Shown: one piece after another, positions 21,952 through 28,050 of the stretch
Position numbering within the stretch: the first letter of the stretch is position 1
How the letters are laid out: each line of letters begins with the position of its first letter
Assembly: GCA_016794165.1 (NCBI GenBank)
Contig: JAEUKV010000005.1
Location: 1-54,995, forward strand
Direction: 5' to 3'
Length of the DNA: 54,995 nucleotides
Origin: Rhodospirillaceae bacterium
GTDB taxonomy: Bacteria; Pseudomonadota; Alphaproteobacteria; Dongiales; Dongiaceae
Program-made: the position numbers and the translations under genes
Notes under the pieces: generated by a model
Database searches by the model: none
What the model saw: the letters and a program-made list of their open reading frames with translations, nothing else
What the model was told of the DNA's origin: nothing

Positions 21952-22977
21952 TCAATCCTTACCACTGACGCCGGCTTCGGCAAAGGTCGCCATGCCGCTG
22001 TGGCAGAGGGCGGCGGCGCGCAGGATTGGAATGCAGAGTGCTGCCCCCGAGGCCTCGCCGAGGCGCATGCCGAAATCGAGCAGCGGCTGCTTGCCGATCT
22101 TCTCCAGCAGGCGCCGATGGCCGGGTTCGGCCGAGCAATGCGCGACCACGCAGTGATCGAGCGCGGTGGCGTCGAGCTTGAGCAGCGTCGCGGCGGCGAC
22201 GGTGGTGGCGAATCCGTCGAGCAGCACCGGCACGCGCGCCATGCGCGCGGCGATCACGGCGCCGGCGATGGCGGCAAGTTCATGGCCGCCGAGGGCAGCG
22301 AGAACCGCCAGCGGATCGTCGAAAACCGCCCTGTGCCGGGCGAGACCCAGATCGATCACTTCCGCCTTGCGCGACAGCTGGGCACCCTGGACGCCGGTGC
22401 CGGGCCCGGCCCAATCGCTGCCGGTGCCGCCGAAGAGGGCGGCGGCGAGGGCGGCGGCGGCTGTGGTGTTGGCGATGCCCATCTCGCCCAGGCAAACGAG
22501 ATCGACCCCGGGTTCCACCGCCATCATGCCATAGGCCATGGCGCGGCAGGTCTCGCTCTCGCTGAGCGCCGGACCTTGCGTGAAATCGGCGGTCGGCTGA
22601 TCGAGGGACATCTCGTAGACGCGGAGGTCGGCATCGGCGTTCTTGCACAGTTGGTTCACCGCAGCCCCGCCATGGGTGAAGTTGAGCACCATCTGCTTGG
22701 TAACGGCAGCGGGAAAGGCGGAGACGCCGAGTGCCGCCACGCCGTGATTGCCGGCAAAGACCGCGACGCGCGGGTGGTTGATGCCGGGCGGCGTACGGCC
22801 CTGCCAGGTGGCGAGCCAGGCTGCCAGCTGCTCCAGGCGCCCAAGGGCGCCGGCCGGCTTGGTCAGTTGCCCCTCACGGGCGGCGGTGGCCGCCGCCGCT
22901 TCCTGGTCCGGGCCGGGAAAATCGGCGACGATGCGTCGCATTTCCGCAAAACTGGCCATCGACTGGTTGTCCAACAT
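21952..22977 (-). CDS. cobT: Nicotinate-nucleotide--dimethylbenzimidazole phosphoribosyltransferase
   Basis: A 341-residue CobT that activates the cobalamin lower ligand by making alpha-ribazole phosphate from DMB and nicotinate mononucleotide. Motifs include KPAGALGRLEQLAAW near the N-terminus, RVAVFAGNHGVA, then LGEMGIANTTAAAAL and the C-terminal GMRLGEASGAAL carrying the catalytic Glu. The ATG at 22977 is the best start; a second ATG six codons in is possible, and the upstream frame to 23178 is not similar. It is divergent from cobS (177 bp between the starts). No B12-box sequence was seen in that gap. Together with cobS and cobC it assembles the nucleotide loop. Confidence 0.95.
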   Translation of the reverse strand: MLDNQSMASFAEMRRIVADFPGPDQEAAAATAAREGQLTKPAGALGRLEQLAAWLATWQGRTPPGINHPRVAVFAGNHGVAALGVSAFPAAVTKQMVLNFTHGGAAVNQLCKNADADLRVYEMSLDQPTADFTQGPALSESETCRAMAYGMMAVEPGVDLVCLGEMGIANTTAAAALAAALFGGTGSDWAGPGTGVQGAQLSRKAEVIDLGLARHRAVFDDPLAVLAALGGHELAAIAGAVIAARMARVPVLLDGFATTVAAATLLKLDATALDHCVVAHCSAEPGHRRLLEKIGKQPLLDFGMRLGEASGAALCIPILRAAALCHSGMATFAEAGVSGKD

Positions 22978-23153
22978 GATGCCTTGCTCCAATATCGGCC
23001 CATGCAGGCCCGTCGCAGTGATCCGACCGTCGCACCGGGATCCTTCCGGATCGACGGGGGATGTCCTATAACCCGGCCCGTAGGATGGGCACAATGTCGG
23101 GCGGCACAAGGCCGGCTCGTCATGCCCACAGAGGCGAGCGAAGTACCGCACCC

Positions 23154-23996
23154 ATGAGCGATTCCGGCCATTCCCCAACCGACGATTCCACTCCCGATCC
23201 CGCCGCGCAGGGGTCGGGTCAGGCGGGGGCCGGGCATCCGAAGTCAGTCCATCCCCTCGCCTTGTGGCAACGCGATGTCTGGCTGTGCCTCGGTTTCTTC
23301 ACCCGCCTGCCGGTGAAATCGGTCGAAGGCACGCTCAGCGAGGCGGTTCGGGCCTTTCCCCTGGCCGGGCTGGCAGTCGGGCTGATCGGTGCGCTGGTCT
23401 ATTATCTCGGCTTTCACATTGGCCTCTCTGCTCCGCTGGCGGCGCTGCTTGCCGTGGCTGCGACGGGGATCGTCACCGGCGCGCTCCATGAGGATGGCTG
23501 GGCCGATGTCTGCGATGCCCTGGGGGCCCGCGGCGGGATCGAGCAGCGCCTGGAGATCCTGCGCGATTCGCGCCTCGGGAGTTACGGCGGCCTCGCGCTC
23601 ATTTTCGCCACCCTGATCAAGGTGATGGCGCTGGCGGCACTCACCGCGCCGGAACTGGTGGCAGGCGCCCTCGTGGCCGCGCATACCCTTTCGCGGGGCG
23701 TTCTCCCTCTGATGATGAGCCGCATGACCCTGGCCCGCGCCGAGGGGCTGGCTGCGCGTGCCGGTCGTCCCAGCGTTACCGCCGCCAACTGGTCCCTGGC
23801 GATCGCCCTCATCATCGCCGTGGTCGCGGTGGCGCCGGTAGCCGCGCTGGTGGCTCTGCTGGCGGCGCTCGCCGCCACCTGGCTCATTGCCAAGCTGGCG
23901 CAGAAGAAATTTGGCGGCTATACCGGCGACGTTCTGGGTGCCGTCGAGCAGGTGGCGGAAATGGCGATCCTCGTCAACCTCGTGACCCTGATCTGA
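23154..23996 (+). CDS. cobS: Adenosylcobinamide-GDP ribazoletransferase (cobalamin synthase)
   Basis: A 280-residue integral membrane enzyme joining adenosylcobinamide-GDP with alpha-ribazole to make adenosylcobalamin. A 32-residue polar N-terminal tail is followed by FFTRLPVKSVEG and several transmembrane segments. The diagnostic motif GALHEDGWADVCDALG, with acidic metal-binding residues, is at about 107-122. Then RDSRLGSYGGLALI is another conserved part. The ATG at 23154 is chosen from context; the frame is open further upstream without similarity. It is followed 34 bp later by cobC, likely in one operon. Confidence 0.96.
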   Translation: MSDSGHSPTDDSTPDPAAQGSGQAGAGHPKSVHPLALWQRDVWLCLGFFTRLPVKSVEGTLSEAVRAFPLAGLAVGLIGALVYYLGFHIGLSAPLAALLAVAATGIVTGALHEDGWADVCDALGARGGIEQRLEILRDSRLGSYGGLALIFATLIKVMALAALTAPELVAGALVAAHTLSRGVLPLMMSRMTLARAEGLAARAGRPSVTAANWSLAIALIIAVVAVAPVAALVALLAALAATWLIAKLAQKKFGGYTGDVLGAVEQVAEMAILVNLVTLI

Positions 23997-24030
23997 GTGC
24001 ACGGATTCGAGCACAGGGGCGGGCCAACCG

Positions 24031-24657
24031 ATGGATCATACTGAAACCAAGCTCTGGCTGGTGCGCCATGCGCCGGTGGTCGGCATCCACGGCCGCATCT
24101 ACGGCCAGGACGACCTCGCCTGCGATTGCTCGGACCAGACCACCTTCGAGGCACTGGCGTCGCTGCTGCCCCGCGAGGCGGTTTGGGTGGCCACGCATCT
24201 CAAGCGCACCCACCAGACCCTGGCGGCGATGCATCGCAGTGCCGGGCGCGATCCGGTGGAGCCGCTGATCGAGCGCGATCTGGTGGAGCAGCATTTCGGT
24301 GACTGGCAGGGTCTCACCTATGCCGAACTCGATGCCAGCCGCGACGGCGCCTATCACCGCTTCTGGCATGCCCCGGCGACCGAGCGACCGCCGGGCGGCG
24401 AGAGCTTCGCCGATGTGGTGGCGCGGGTGGAGAAGGCGCTGCTGCGCCTCACTCTTGCCCATGCCGGCAACGACATCGTCGTGGTGACCCATGGCGGCGC
24501 CATCCGCGCGGCCCTGGCGGCCGCGCTCAACATCGAGCCCGAGCGCGCGCTCGGCTTTTCGGTCGACAATTGTTCGGTGACGCGGCTCGACCACATCGAG
24601 GGGAAAAGCTTCGGCTCCGCCTGGCGCGTCGCCTTCGTCAATCGGCGCGCAATCTGA
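24031..24657 (+). CDS. Histidine phosphatase, probable alpha-ribazole phosphatase CobC
   Basis: A 208-residue member of the histidine phosphatase superfamily. The catalytic motif is LVRHAPVV (RHx near residues 12-14, normally RHG), with the second conserved His in VVVTHGGAIRAAL and an acidic partner in the LIERDLVEQHFGDWQG segment. CobC removes the phosphate from alpha-ribazole-5'-phosphate in the cobalamin pathway. Position directly after cobS supports this role over a phosphoglycerate mutase one. The RHA instead of RHG is tolerated in the family. The 3' end overlaps the convergent DUF1284 gene by 20 bp. Confidence 0.85.
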   Translation: MDHTETKLWLVRHAPVVGIHGRIYGQDDLACDCSDQTTFEALASLLPREAVWVATHLKRTHQTLAAMHRSAGRDPVEPLIERDLVEQHFGDWQGLTYAELDASRDGAYHRFWHAPATERPPGGESFADVVARVEKALLRLTLAHAGNDIVVVTHGGAIRAALAAALNIEPERALGFSVDNCSVTRLDHIEGKSFGSAWRVAFVNRRAI

Positions 24658-25063
24658 TATCCGGAAAACCCCCGGCGGCGATGTCGCTGCAGAGATCGTG
24701 CCATTCGCATCCCGTGCAGGCGGCGCGGATGGCTCCCTGGCGGAAGCTGTTGCGCAGTGCCGCAAGACGCGGCGCATCGAGGCGGAGATGCTGCCCGGCG
24801 CCGAGCGGTTGGCGCATCAGCTCGCCGATGGCCGCCAGGGCCGCGCGGTCGCGGGCGACGACACTTTCGTCATGGCAGTGGGCATCGCCGGTGCACAGCA
24901 GCGGGGCGCAGACATCGTCCGGTCCCTCGACCAGTTCGACATCCTCGCCCCGCCCGAGCCGTGCGCAGATGCGGTCGAAGTTTTCGGTGAAGGCTGCGCT
25001 GTACCCCTTCCCGGCATAGCTCAGCATGCAGAGCAGATGGTGCGCGCGCAGCCTGACGGTCAC
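24638..25063 (-). CDS. DUF1284 family Cys-rich protein
   Basis: A 141-residue protein of the DUF1284 family. It begins MTVRLRAHHLLCMLSYAGKG, the family hallmark, and contains eight cysteines: 12, 33, 52, 57, 63 and a C-terminal set at 116, 119 and 125 (CTGCEWHDLC). Such spacing suggests an iron-sulfur or zinc site, but none has been demonstrated to my knowledge. It starts 9 bp after bioY on the same strand, so it is probably cotranscribed. No transport or biotin enzyme is adjacent. It overlaps the end of the cobC-like gene by 20 bp. Function unknown. Confidence 0.85.
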   Translation of the reverse strand: MTVRLRAHHLLCMLSYAGKGYSAAFTENFDRICARLGRGEDVELVEGPDDVCAPLLCTGDAHCHDESVVARDRAALAAIGELMRQPLGAGQHLRLDAPRLAALRNSFRQGAIRAACTGCEWHDLCSDIAAGGFPDIRLRAD

Positions 25064-25072
25064 TGAAGTTGA

Positions 25073-25657
25073 TTACTGCTTCGTCAGTCGCAGGCTGGCC
25101 TTCACGGTCAAGGCCGCCAGCGCCGATTTGAGGACGCCGCCGAGGATGAACGGCGTCACACCGTGGATCATCGCCTGTTCATAGCCGATGAGGCCCGCAA
25201 GATAGGCACCACCCATCGCCAGGCACAGCGCATTGGCGGCCAGCATGATGAGGAAGCCGGAGACGAGGTTGCGGGTGAACCCGCGCTCGGCGAGGAAGCC
25301 CACCATCGCCGCCATGATCGGGAAGGAAACGAGATAGCCGAGGGTCGGGCCCGCAAAATGCGCCAGGCCGCCGGCACCGCCGGCGAGGACCGGCATGCCC
25401 ACCATGGCTTCACCGAGCCAGGCGAGGACGGTGACGGCACCGAGGCGCCAGCCGTAGAAGGCACCGACCACGGTCACCGCGAAGGTCTGCATGGTCATCG
25501 GCACGAATGGTTTCATCGGCACCTCGATCCAGGAGGAGAGGGCGAGGAACAGGGTGCCGAGGACGACCGCGCCGATCTGAAAGGTCATGGAGCGGCTGTG
25601 CAGGCGCAGCGGGCTGAAGGCGGGGTCGCGGGTGGCGGCCGAAAGCGTCCGGGTCAT
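25073..25657 (-). CDS. bioY: Biotin transporter subunit BioY
   Basis: A 194-residue integral membrane protein with about six hydrophobic segments, the substrate-binding subunit (S-component) of ECF-type biotin uptake. The motifs VPMKPFVPMTMQTFAV and the AGGAGGLAHFAGPTLGYL segment are conserved in BioY, the latter for binding biotin. Neither bioM nor bioN lies nearby, so it may act alone, as some BioY do, or share an ECF module elsewhere. The ATG at 25657 has an AGGAAGAGAG ribosome-binding site. A promoter candidate is at 25687-25715. DUF1284 follows after 9 bp. Confidence 0.95.
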   Translation of the reverse strand: MTRTLSAATRDPAFSPLRLHSRSMTFQIGAVVLGTLFLALSSWIEVPMKPFVPMTMQTFAVTVVGAFYGWRLGAVTVLAWLGEAMVGMPVLAGGAGGLAHFAGPTLGYLVSFPIMAAMVGFLAERGFTRNLVSGFLIMLAANALCLAMGGAYLAGLIGYEQAMIHGVTPFILGGVLKSALAALTVKASLRLTKQ

Positions 25658-25686
25658 GGCATCTCTCTTCCTGAAGGTGGAAGGCC

Positions 25687-25715
25687 TAGATAATTGACCC
25701 GCCGCCTTCTGTCGA
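25687..25715 (-). promoter_or_regulatory. Candidate bioY promoter with partial BioR-like element
   Basis: On the minus strand, TCGACA (25710-25715) and TATCTA (25687-25692) are 17 bp apart, a 5/6 and 4/6 match to sigma70. The -10 overlaps TTATCTAG, which resembles the first half of the BioR operator TTATMKATAA but lacks its right end. The site ends 30 bp before the bioY ATG. Promoter plausible; BioR control weak. Confidence 0.4.
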
Positions 25716-25736
25716 GACGCCAGGCGGTATGCACTG

Positions 25737-26171
25737 TCACAGCAGCGACAGGGTGCGGGCATCGAGTCCGCCGCCGAAATACCGCTGCAGCGCGGTGTGA
25801 AATATTGTCTCCCCGGGGGCGGCACGGTGGAACAGGGTCATCGAGGAATGGAACTTGAGATCGTCGGGACTGCCGAAGATGGCGTGGATGTCGCGCCCCT
25901 CGACGCGGTTGACCAGATCGGTGCATTCCCGCAGCCGCGCCCCCAGCACGGGATGGGCGAGATAGGCCTGGGCTTCGGCGAGATCCGCGATGGCGAATCT
26001 GCGCGACAGGCTGCTCTGGCCGAGCCCCGCCAGTTGCGGGAAGATGAACCACATCCAGTGGCTGGACTTGCGCCCCCGGCCCAGTTCGGCCAGGACATCG
26101 GCATAGACCGGGTCCTGGGCCTGGACAAAGCGGTCGAAGTCGTGGGAATCGGTGTCGTCGGAAACCGGCAT
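25737..26171 (-). CDS. DUF1810 family protein
   Basis: A 144-residue cytoplasmic protein of DUF1810. The family signature is easy to see: DFDRFVQAQDPVYADVLAEL at the start, then KSSHWMWFIFPQLAGLGQS, and later RLRECTDLVNRV followed by the IFGSPDDLKFHSSMTLFH segment. The function of the family is not settled; some members are described as NADAR-like or calpastatin-named, neither proven here. The ATG at 26171 follows a stretch with no family-like sequence. The gene is divergent from the Ada-type gene (92 bp between starts), and its stop lies 80 bp before bioY on the same strand. Confidence 0.88.
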   Translation of the reverse strand: MPVSDDTDSHDFDRFVQAQDPVYADVLAELGRGRKSSHWMWFIFPQLAGLGQSSLSRRFAIADLAEAQAYLAHPVLGARLRECTDLVNRVEGRDIHAIFGSPDDLKFHSSMTLFHRAAPGETIFHTALQRYFGGGLDARTLSLL

Positions 26172-26263
26172 GGCAAAGCACCCCGCGGCTGATCGATGCA
26201 GCATAGCGCAAGGGCCGGATAGATTGTCGGGCGGCTTTGGCCGATCTTTCAGGGATGGTTCGC

Positions 26264-27172
26264 ATGACACGAAAGCCGCCCAAGATGAGTCCCACCGACA
26301 GTGCCCTCATTGACCGCACCACCGCCTATATCAAGGCGCGCCAGGACGAGGAGGCCGACGGCCCGGTGACACTGGACGAACTGGCCGCGCATTGTGGCCT
26401 TTCGCCCTGGCATCTGCAGCGCCGCTTCAAACAGGCGACGGGCGTGTCGCCGCGCGAATTCGAGGAAAGCCTGCGCCTCGCCCGGTTCAAGAAAGGGCTA
26501 AGGAGCGGTGCCGGCGTGGCGGCAGCGACCTTCGATGCCGGCTTCGGCTCCTCGAGCCGGGTTTATGAACGGGCCGGGACCGCCCTCGGCATGACACCTG
26601 CTTCCTATGCCGAAGGCGGCAAGGGGGCCGAGATCCGCTATGCCATCGCCCCCTGTGCCCTTGGCTTGGTGCTGGTGGCGGCGACTTCGCGCGGCCTCTG
26701 CCGGGTCGAGATGGGCGAGACCGCGGACGAACTCGAAGCCGATCTCCGGTCCGAATTTCCCCGTGCCCGGTCGATCACCCGGGACGATGCCGGCCTCGGC
26801 CATCTGGTGGCCGAGATCCTGCACCGGATCTCCGGACGCGCCCCCGACCGGAACATCCCCCTCGACATCCGCATGACCGCCTTCCAGCGCCAGGTCTGGA
26901 GCGCGCTCAGCCGGATTCCGGTCGGCGAAACCCGCAGCTATGGCGACATCGCCCAGGCGATCGGCCAGCCGGGTGCGGCTCGGGCGGTGGGGCAGGCCTG
27001 CGGCAGCAACCCGGTGGCCATTGCCATCCCCTGTCACCGTGTTTTGCGTAACGATGGAGCGCTTGGCGGCTATGCCTGGGGAAGCCAGCGAAAACAGGCC
27101 CTTATCGCCGCCGAGTCGGCCTCGTTAAGAAAGAAATCGCGTCTCGCTGGCAAAAAAACAGTAAGCGGTTGA
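26264..27172 (+). CDS. Ada-type O6-alkylguanine-DNA methyltransferase with AraC helix-turn-helix
   Basis: A 302-residue protein with an AraC-type DNA-binding domain (about residues 10-115, with LDELAAHCGLSPWHLQRRFK and SPREFEESLRLARFKKGL) fused to a DNA methyltransferase domain. The suicidal cysteine is Cys257 in IAIPCHRVLRNDG; the recognition region has GETRSYGDIAQAIGQPGAAR. The N-terminal methylphosphotriester (Ada zinc) domain of E. coli Ada is absent. It directly repairs O6-methylguanine in the cytoplasm and may self-regulate. The ATG at 26264 is preferred for spacing to CAGGG; 26255 and an upstream TTG are also possible. Confidence 0.92.
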   Translation: MTRKPPKMSPTDSALIDRTTAYIKARQDEEADGPVTLDELAAHCGLSPWHLQRRFKQATGVSPREFEESLRLARFKKGLRSGAGVAAATFDAGFGSSSRVYERAGTALGMTPASYAEGGKGAEIRYAIAPCALGLVLVAATSRGLCRVEMGETADELEADLRSEFPRARSITRDDAGLGHLVAEILHRISGRAPDRNIPLDIRMTAFQRQVWSALSRIPVGETRSYGDIAQAIGQPGAARAVGQACGSNPVAIAIPCHRVLRNDGALGGYAWGSQRKQALIAAESASLRKKSRLAGKKTVSG

Positions 27173-27231
27173 AAGCGACACAAGCCGGGCCGTAGAGTGG
27201 TCCCCAGGGGCTGATATCAACCTTGGGGATA

Positions 27232-27240
27232 TGTGGATAA
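27232..27240 (-). promoter_or_regulatory. Consensus DnaA box
   Basis: TTATCCACA on the minus strand, the perfect 9-bp DnaA consensus, in the 80-bp gap before the YgjP-like gene, 12 bp from its start codon. It is the second such perfect site in the window; both are intergenic. It could be a titration or regulatory site. Function not shown. Confidence 0.5.
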
Positions 27241-27252
27241 TTCTCGACGGCC

Positions 27253-28050
27253 ATGCGGAAAGACCAGAAAAACAAGGGAAAACTCGAAACACGCGCCGAG
27301 ACCGGCGCGGTGCAAAAGTCGCGCGCGAAACGCAAGCGCATGAGTGAGGCGAGCGACATCCACATGCTCTCCTTCGCGACGCGCAAGGTGCCGCTGGTGT
27401 TCAAGCAGAACGCCCGCGCCCGGCGCATCATCCTCAGGCTCGATTACGGTACCTCGCGCATCATCGTGGTGCTGCCGAAACGCACTTCGCGCGATGAAGG
27501 CAAGCGATTTGCGTTAAGCAACAAGGATTGGATCGAGGAGCGGCTCGATCAATTGCACGAGCCGGTGCCGTTCATTCACAACGCCACCATCCCCTTCCTC
27601 GGCGCGCCGCATCGTATCCGTCATCGCCCGACCGCGCGCGGCGTGGTCTGGTGCGAGCAGGAAGAGATCCATGTCGCGGGTCACGAGGAGCATGTCCCGC
27701 GAAGGGTGCAGGACTGGCTGAAGATCGAGGCCAAGCGCGAGATCGAGGCGCGCGCGGTGCAGAAGGCCGAGGCGATCGGCCGGAAGATCAAGAAGATCAC
27801 CATCCGCGACACCAAGAGCCGCTGGGGCTCGTGCACCAGCGAGGGCGAGCTTGCCTTTTCCTGGCGGCTCATTTTTGCGCCGCGCCATGTGATGGATTAC
27901 GTCATCGCCCATGAGGTCGCCCATCTCAGGGAGATGAATCACGGTCCCCGCTTCTGGAAGCTGTGCGGCGAGATCTGCCGGTCGGTCGAACCGGCCCGCG
28001 CCTGGCTGGAGAACAACGGCACCGACCTCTATCGCTACGGAAGGTTTTAA
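27253..28050 (+). CDS. YgjP-like metallopeptidase (SprT-related, DUF45)
   Basis: A 265-residue predicted zinc metallopeptidase. The metal motif is HEVAHLREMNH: His220, Glu221, His224 and a third ligand His230. Before it are the conserved strands DTKSRWGSCTSEGELAFSWRL, the WGSC motif being typical of the YgjP/DUF45 family. The first 40 residues are highly charged and lysine-rich and may be a natural tail or an overlong start; in-frame ATGs at 27340 and 27364 are alternatives. It is likely cytoplasmic. A DnaA box lies in the leader. The stop overlaps the convergent DUF4344-like gene by 4 bp. Confidence 0.87.
   Translation: MRKDQKNKGKLETRAETGAVQKSRAKRKRMSEASDIHMLSFATRKVPLVFKQNARARRIILRLDYGTSRIIVVLPKRTSRDEGKRFALSNKDWIEERLDQLHEPVPFIHNATIPFLGAPHRIRHRPTARGVVWCEQEEIHVAGHEEHVPRRVQDWLKIEAKREIEARAVQKAEAIGRKIKKITIRDTKSRWGSCTSEGELAFSWRLIFAPRHVMDYVIAHEVAHLREMNHGPRFWKLCGEICRSVEPARAWLENNGTDLYRYGRF

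Follow-up and report, generated by a model that had tools for sequence, protein, structure and literature searches.

Biotin auxotrophs rely on uptake, and to our knowledge the fate of imported biotin vitamers before ligation is poorly charted. Dinoroseobacter shibae is a biotin auxotroph in which the biotin-uptake operon of its 191-kb plasmid is required for killing the algal partner, according to PMC8831719. Proteins of Pfam family PF06935 (DUF1284) have no assigned function, and no paper containing DUF1284, COG3543 or PF06935 was found in the full-text literature searched; a topical search likewise returned no paper on the bioY-DUF1284 pair, with Hebbeln 2007, Finkenwirth 2013 and Feng 2013 falling outside that search.

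The window analysed here is a stretch of 54,995 nucleotides from a contig of a Rhodospirillaceae bacterium (Dongiaceae). On its minus strand it carries a gene for a 141-residue DUF1284 protein (24638-25063, GTG start), whose match to the PF06935 profile (64 bits, cut-off 25) covers positions 1-102 of 102. The gene upstream, bioY (25073-25657, minus strand), encodes the S component of a biotin transporter (PF02632; 108.4 bits, curated cut-off 25), and the two are separated by 9 bp (25064-25072; TAA TCAACTTCA GTG), so that the coordinates bear out the initial annotation, which placed DUF1284 9 bp after bioY on the same strand. The eight cysteines that it counted are also present (residues 12, 33, 52, 57, 63, 116, 119 and 125), as is the motif CTGCEWHDLC near the end of the protein (residues 116-125 of 141). 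A DUF1810 gene (PF08837, 194 bits) lies at 25737-26210 on the same strand as bioY, 79 bp upstream, and could share an operon with it. At the other end, the 3'-terminal 20 bp of DUF1284 overlap a convergent His-phosphatase gene, an overlap also present in Dongia mobilis; the two cobalamin-type genes on the plus strand at 23151-24657, which point at DUF1284, encode CobS and then a His_Phos_1 protein resembling alpha-ribazole phosphatase (112.5 bits, short of the cut-off of 162.9). A scan of positions 22000-28000 against Rfam gave no match above the gathering score.

A whole-genome search found DUF1284 in 18 of 385 genomes of the window's class; it is also present in 3 of 17 genomes of the window's family (one of them new), in 13 of 299 genomes of a sample of its phylum (11 new) and in 67 of 398 genomes of Bacillota, the phylum of Tepidibacillus, with 71 matches. 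Among archaea, a match is present in Methanosarcina acetivorans. Our survey set comprised 102 DUF1284 loci (31 alphaproteobacterial and 71 from Bacillota), for most of which some 6 kb of flanking sequence was included at either end; one extra alphaproteobacterial locus is that of Mesorhizobium soli, and genome G165 is represented by the Dongia mobilis locus. At 40 of the 102 loci (23/31 alphaproteobacterial, 17/71 Bacillota) the gene directly upstream of DUF1284, on the same strand, encodes BioY, a frequency that, in two phyla, places the adjacency far above chance and shows that the association first noticed in the window recurs in other genomes. With start codons picked by script, 14 of the 40 linked loci show an overlap of 4, 8 or 1 bp between bioY and DUF1284, which suggests translational coupling. 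When all biotin transport and ligase genes that adjoin DUF1284 or lie within about 2 kb of it are counted, the number of linked loci is 53 of 102 (24/31 and 29/71, respectively).

The ligase gene figures in several of these arrangements. At seven Bacillota loci birA, encoding biotin protein ligase, is directly downstream of DUF1284 (identified by name at L137 and by BLAST at the others), with no bioY in the stretch examined; six upstream genes in the scan match EPSP synthase/MurA, as at L137, where the NCBIfam name is MurA. The ligase gene is located upstream of DUF1284 at nine further loci, eight of which have the order birA-bioY-DUF1284 (L099, L100, L152-L154, L156, L158 and L159, with coaX next at six of the eight) and one the order birA-DUF1284-bioY (L147). 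The gene that follows birA-bioY-DUF1284 at L099:5054-6040 has sub-cut-off matches to nitrilase-superfamily amidases; vertebrate biotinidase is a member of the nitrilase superfamily. At L117, L129 and L142, bioY is followed by an open reading frame that is probably ecfA, then by ecfT and DUF1284; at L102 bioY is about 0.8 kb upstream of DUF1284, and at L075, an alphaproteobacterial example, the DUF1284 locus runs into opposite-strand genes, one ecfT-like and the other bioY. No biotin-synthesis family is among the commonest families of the scanned neighbour genes (top 25 per tally). These arrangements bear on whether DUF1284 might be a regulatory or assembly partner of BioY, binding its cytosolic face and gating or energising uptake according to metal or redox state. 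Such a partner would account for the bioY-then-DUF1284 order with its frequent overlaps, for the position of DUF1284 after ecfT in bioY operons and for the dedicated group of BioY proteins that accompanies DUF1284 in alphaproteobacteria (see below), but it sits poorly with the seven DUF1284-birA loci that have no bioY in the stretch examined and with the 42 of 71 Bacillota loci that have no biotin gene beside DUF1284, and we consider it improbable.

No biotin transport or ligase gene was found at 49 of the 102 loci in the stretch examined, some of these being contig ends or gene fragments, and in two Bacillota sets of six loci each DUF1284 adjoins instead a thioredoxin-like gene or a pyruvate:ferredoxin oxidoreductase; of the 35 downstream genes scanned, 5 contain sigma-54 regulator domains. 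The loci without a biotin neighbour and the two Bacillota sets count against the role in biotin acquisition that we prefer and speak for an alternative in which DUF1284 serves energy metabolism in general, as a redox or metal protein, and entered bioY operons with no biotin-specific role. Phylogenetic analysis of 95 DUF1284 proteins, with few alignment columns and many forks left open, speaks against this alternative, as the oxidoreductase-neighbour loci form one clade (100/97) and those with the thioredoxin-like gene all fall inside an 18-row group (81/85), whereas loci with a bioY neighbour are spread over the tree. The BioR boxes that precede bioY-DUF1284 at eight loci (see below) weigh in the same direction, and we judge a purely general function unlikely. 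DUF1284 is present three times in the Bacillota genome G942 (L110, L116 and L134), and no copy has bioY or birA as a neighbour over the stretch examined.

Seven loci (L079, L135, L156, L159, L160, L161 and L162) were omitted from the 95-sequence alignment on account of fragments, truncated starts and one internal TGA, and were kept in the counts over 102 loci. On the DUF1284 tree the label "bioY directly upstream" has to change 14 times, with well-supported branches forcing at least eight of these changes, as against about 30 changes when the labels are shuffled. Since the seven DUF1284-birA loci form a single clade, and the four birA-bioY-DUF1284-coaX loci (of six) that are in the tree form another, the counts for birA contexts represent fewer independent events. 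In a quick tree of 114 BioY proteins, 18 of the 23 alphaproteobacterial BioYs linked to DUF1284 group together (SH-aLRT 87) to the exclusion of every sampled unlinked BioY, and the window BioY lies inside a 16-member subgroup with support 98. Second BioYs of the same genomes are placed outside this linked group, and the bioY-DUF1284 pair thus appears largely cassette-like; the remaining five linked alphaproteobacterial BioYs occupy two other places, beside unlinked BioYs.

The presence of BioY and bioB was assessed in 80 of the 97 known DUF1284 genomes, namely all 30 alphaproteobacterial genomes and 50 of the 67 from Bacillota, from which every genome with bioY directly upstream was kept and two with DUF1284 fragments were omitted. 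BioY is present in 77 of the 80. It is found in 38 of the 41 tested genomes without a directly upstream bioY, nearby in another arrangement in six of the 38. The background of BioY was counted for the alphaproteobacterial sample, where 16 of 18 DUF1284 genomes carry it, compared with 138 of 367 others (Fisher p = 1.7e-5, uncorrected for relatedness), an enrichment to which the adjacency itself contributes, as BioY is found in 4 of the 6 genomes without a directly upstream bioY, a proportion not clearly above that in the 367 DUF1284-less genomes. BioY does not need DUF1284, which is absent from 138 of the 154 BioY genomes of this sample.

The gene for biotin synthase, bioB, scores above the cut-off in 26 of the 80 DUF1284 genomes; for the alphaproteobacterial sample the figure is 1 of 17. 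In the window's genome (98.67% complete, 332 contigs) there is no bioB above the cut-off, although one could have been overlooked, and the protein behind the sole weak match is lipoyl synthase (LipA; 37-38 bits against a cut-off of 225); the genome does carry a biotin ligase. BioB consumes an Fe-S cluster, and the initial annotation had put forward biotin synthase as an example of a partner for DUF1284, a proposal that gains no support here, with no bioB found in the window's genome and one present in 26 of the 80. A version in which DUF1284 supplies or repairs Fe-S clusters for BioB could draw on the Cys triads of the protein, which could carry such clusters; with bioB not above the cut-off in the window's genome nor in 54 of the 80, we rejected it and regard it as very improbable. 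A tie between DUF1284 and the absence of bioB was dropped as well, since among BioY-positive genomes bioB is found in 1 of 15 with and 17 of 116 without DUF1284 (Fisher p = 0.69; the count assumes that the 332 sampled genomes are G000-G331). The window's genome also has a bioD-like gene (L195:10456-11142; 91.5 bits, cut-off 83.3), which is next to an acetate-CoA ligase gene.

A GntR-family gene is located upstream of bioY-DUF1284 at 8 of the 31 alphaproteobacterial loci (BLAST with the L091 copy), and exact BioR boxes, the letters of which are found in the probes of PMC4554459, occur among the 31 at precisely these eight. Over all 31 loci there are 16 exact boxes where 0.34 are expected, and nine just upstream of bioY where 0.005 are expected. 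Each of the eight has one box at about -24 to -43 of bioY and seven have a second directly before the GntR gene, while at L082 both boxes lie between the GntR gene and bioY; on a plasmid of Agrobacterium vitis, boxes precede both the GntR gene and bioY. From these boxes we infer that the GntR genes of the eight loci encode BioR. Near bioY in the window there is no match to the BioR box with two or fewer mismatches. A 13-base block, AATTATCTAGGCC (25683-25695, minus strand), about 26-38 bp upstream of the bioY ATG, is identical in Dongia mobilis, and TTATCTAGGC, also conserved in Dongia, has 7 of the 10 bases of the BioR box (3 mismatches) at the expected place. The block AATTATCTAGGCC may be a diverged BioR box or part of a promoter.

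The bioY-DUF1284 pair is also plasmid-borne: the annotation under the match includes BioY in 7 of 10 plasmid records, three of which belong to the same species. For example, bioY and DUF1284 overlap by 4 bp on a plasmid of D. shibae of 190,506 bp. We take this plasmid to be the reported 191-kb one, on the strength of size, gene order and insertion coordinates. There (L238:3435-6272) the pair, with its 4-bp overlap, faces a separate bioY-ABC-ecfT operon that runs towards it. In PMC8831719, Dshi_3688, described as BioY-related and on the opposite strand, is named as interesting for further study, and it would correspond to the bioY that precedes DUF1284; the term "DUF" does not appear in the main text of PMC8831719. 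At the plasmid DUF1284 loci of Azospirillum and Methylobacterium no biotin gene is annotated within 3 kb, in gene tables that are incomplete. Searches of viral contigs with single DUF1284 proteins found no viral copy. An unannotated human-gut scaffold labelled "Bacteriophage sp." (L242) has a partial DUF1284 match over residues 1-53, and may, as a guess, be a bacterial contig.

Alignment of the 95 DUF1284 sequences shows that R6, H8, H9, C12, G20, D49, C52, C63, D72, C119 and C125 are invariant and that G18, Y21, C116 and W121 are nearly so. Six cysteines, two histidines, one arginine and two aspartates are therefore kept (nearly) invariant, and C33 and C57 are not kept family-wide. In the window, codons 6-12, which include R6, H8, H9 and C12, lie at 25028-25048, the first cysteine cluster (C52, H62 and C63, with the invariant D49 just upstream) at 24875-24910, and the second (C116-x2-C119-x-W121-x3-C125) at 24689-24718, all on the minus strand. 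Most family members have a first cluster of the form C-x2-C-x(n)-C. In 22 sequences, the window's among them, the middle Cys is missing, and in 21 of these a His directly precedes the following Cys; of the 73 sequences that retain it, 3 score as having such a His, two of them (L117 and L129) by way of an extra Cys. The Cys-to-His exchange also occurs outside the alphaproteobacterial clade, in L114. A swap of this kind is expected of a metal ligand and indicates metal ligation, and DUF1284 very probably binds a metal. The initial annotation had suggested a metal or Fe-S site, of which the metal site is made probable by the conserved Cys triads and the exchange, while the sequence does not discriminate between Fe-S and Zn.

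An AlphaFold2 model built from four sequences (pLDDT 85.5, pTM 0.82) is mostly helical and also has three short strands, the set of five models spanning 60 to 85.5. A separate prediction, headed by the Tepidibacillus protein, came out poor (pLDDT 62.6). Comparison of the 85.5-pLDDT model with the PDB gave no Foldseek match at E<=0.001 and 0 of 174 chains at Z>=2, comparison with viral models gave no significant match, and phmmer and profile searches for solved relatives gave chance-level hits only (best E 0.095 and 0.075). No fold relative names an activity, a point against the reading that we prefer.

Taken together, DUF1284 is genetically linked to biotin uptake and ligation, recurrently and in multiple contexts. 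This linkage, found in two phyla, supports the suggestion that DUF1284 might function in biotin use; a role in biotin acquisition or use is likely, the protein probably being a helper in obtaining or using imported biotin. More specifically, we lean towards a soluble, metal-binding accessory of biotin acquisition, where the metal binding, the cytosolic location and the action between BioY and BirA are drawn from residue conservation and gene partners. DUF1284 is encoded directly after BioY and probably on one transcript, as suggested by the spacing in the window and by the gene overlaps and operator boxes of related loci. It is predicted to form a small, mostly helical single domain, the two Cys triads of which, together with C12 and H8/H9, would build one or two metal sites, and its gene partners suggest that it would act in the cytosol on what BioY imports, ahead of biotin attachment by BirA. 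It is possible that the step is a salvage reaction that turns an imported vitamer (e.g. biocytin or biotin sulfoxide) into biotin and depends on a metal or on redox chemistry. R6, H8, H9, D49 and D72 would be candidate active-site residues for this predicted catalysis, which we advance only tentatively. Equally speculative is the broader idea that DUF1284 founds a so far unrecognised metalloprotein family, its fold unseen in the PDB, which fills a gap in biotin scavenging, either by converting vitamers or by passing the import on from BioY to the ligase, across Alphaproteobacteria and Bacillota and in part under BioR control. Gene order ties this small protein to BioY, BirA and BioR boxes and so provides a defined gene for deletion, and in D. 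shibae the bioY-DUF1284 pair lies directly beside a biotin-uptake operon of the type that PMC8831719 reports as needed for algal killing.

In comparison with described families and systems, the window protein resembles the PF06935 family in its full-length, 64-bit match and in having every invariant residue, and differs in that its branch lacks the middle Cys of the first cluster and has His62 before the last. The locus shares with the ECF biotin transporter BioMNY the BioY S component, and ecfT precedes DUF1284 at L117, L129 and L142; in contrast to the components of BioMNY, DUF1284 has no transporter-family match in Pfam or NCBIfam, and no ECF gene adjoins it in the window. Compared with BioR-controlled uptake operons, the window has a 7/10 box only. 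The eight related loci have the GntR gene, the BioR box and bioY in common with the BioR-controlled bioYB operon of Paracoccus denitrificans, and differ from it in the second gene, which is bioB in P. denitrificans and DUF1284 at the related loci.
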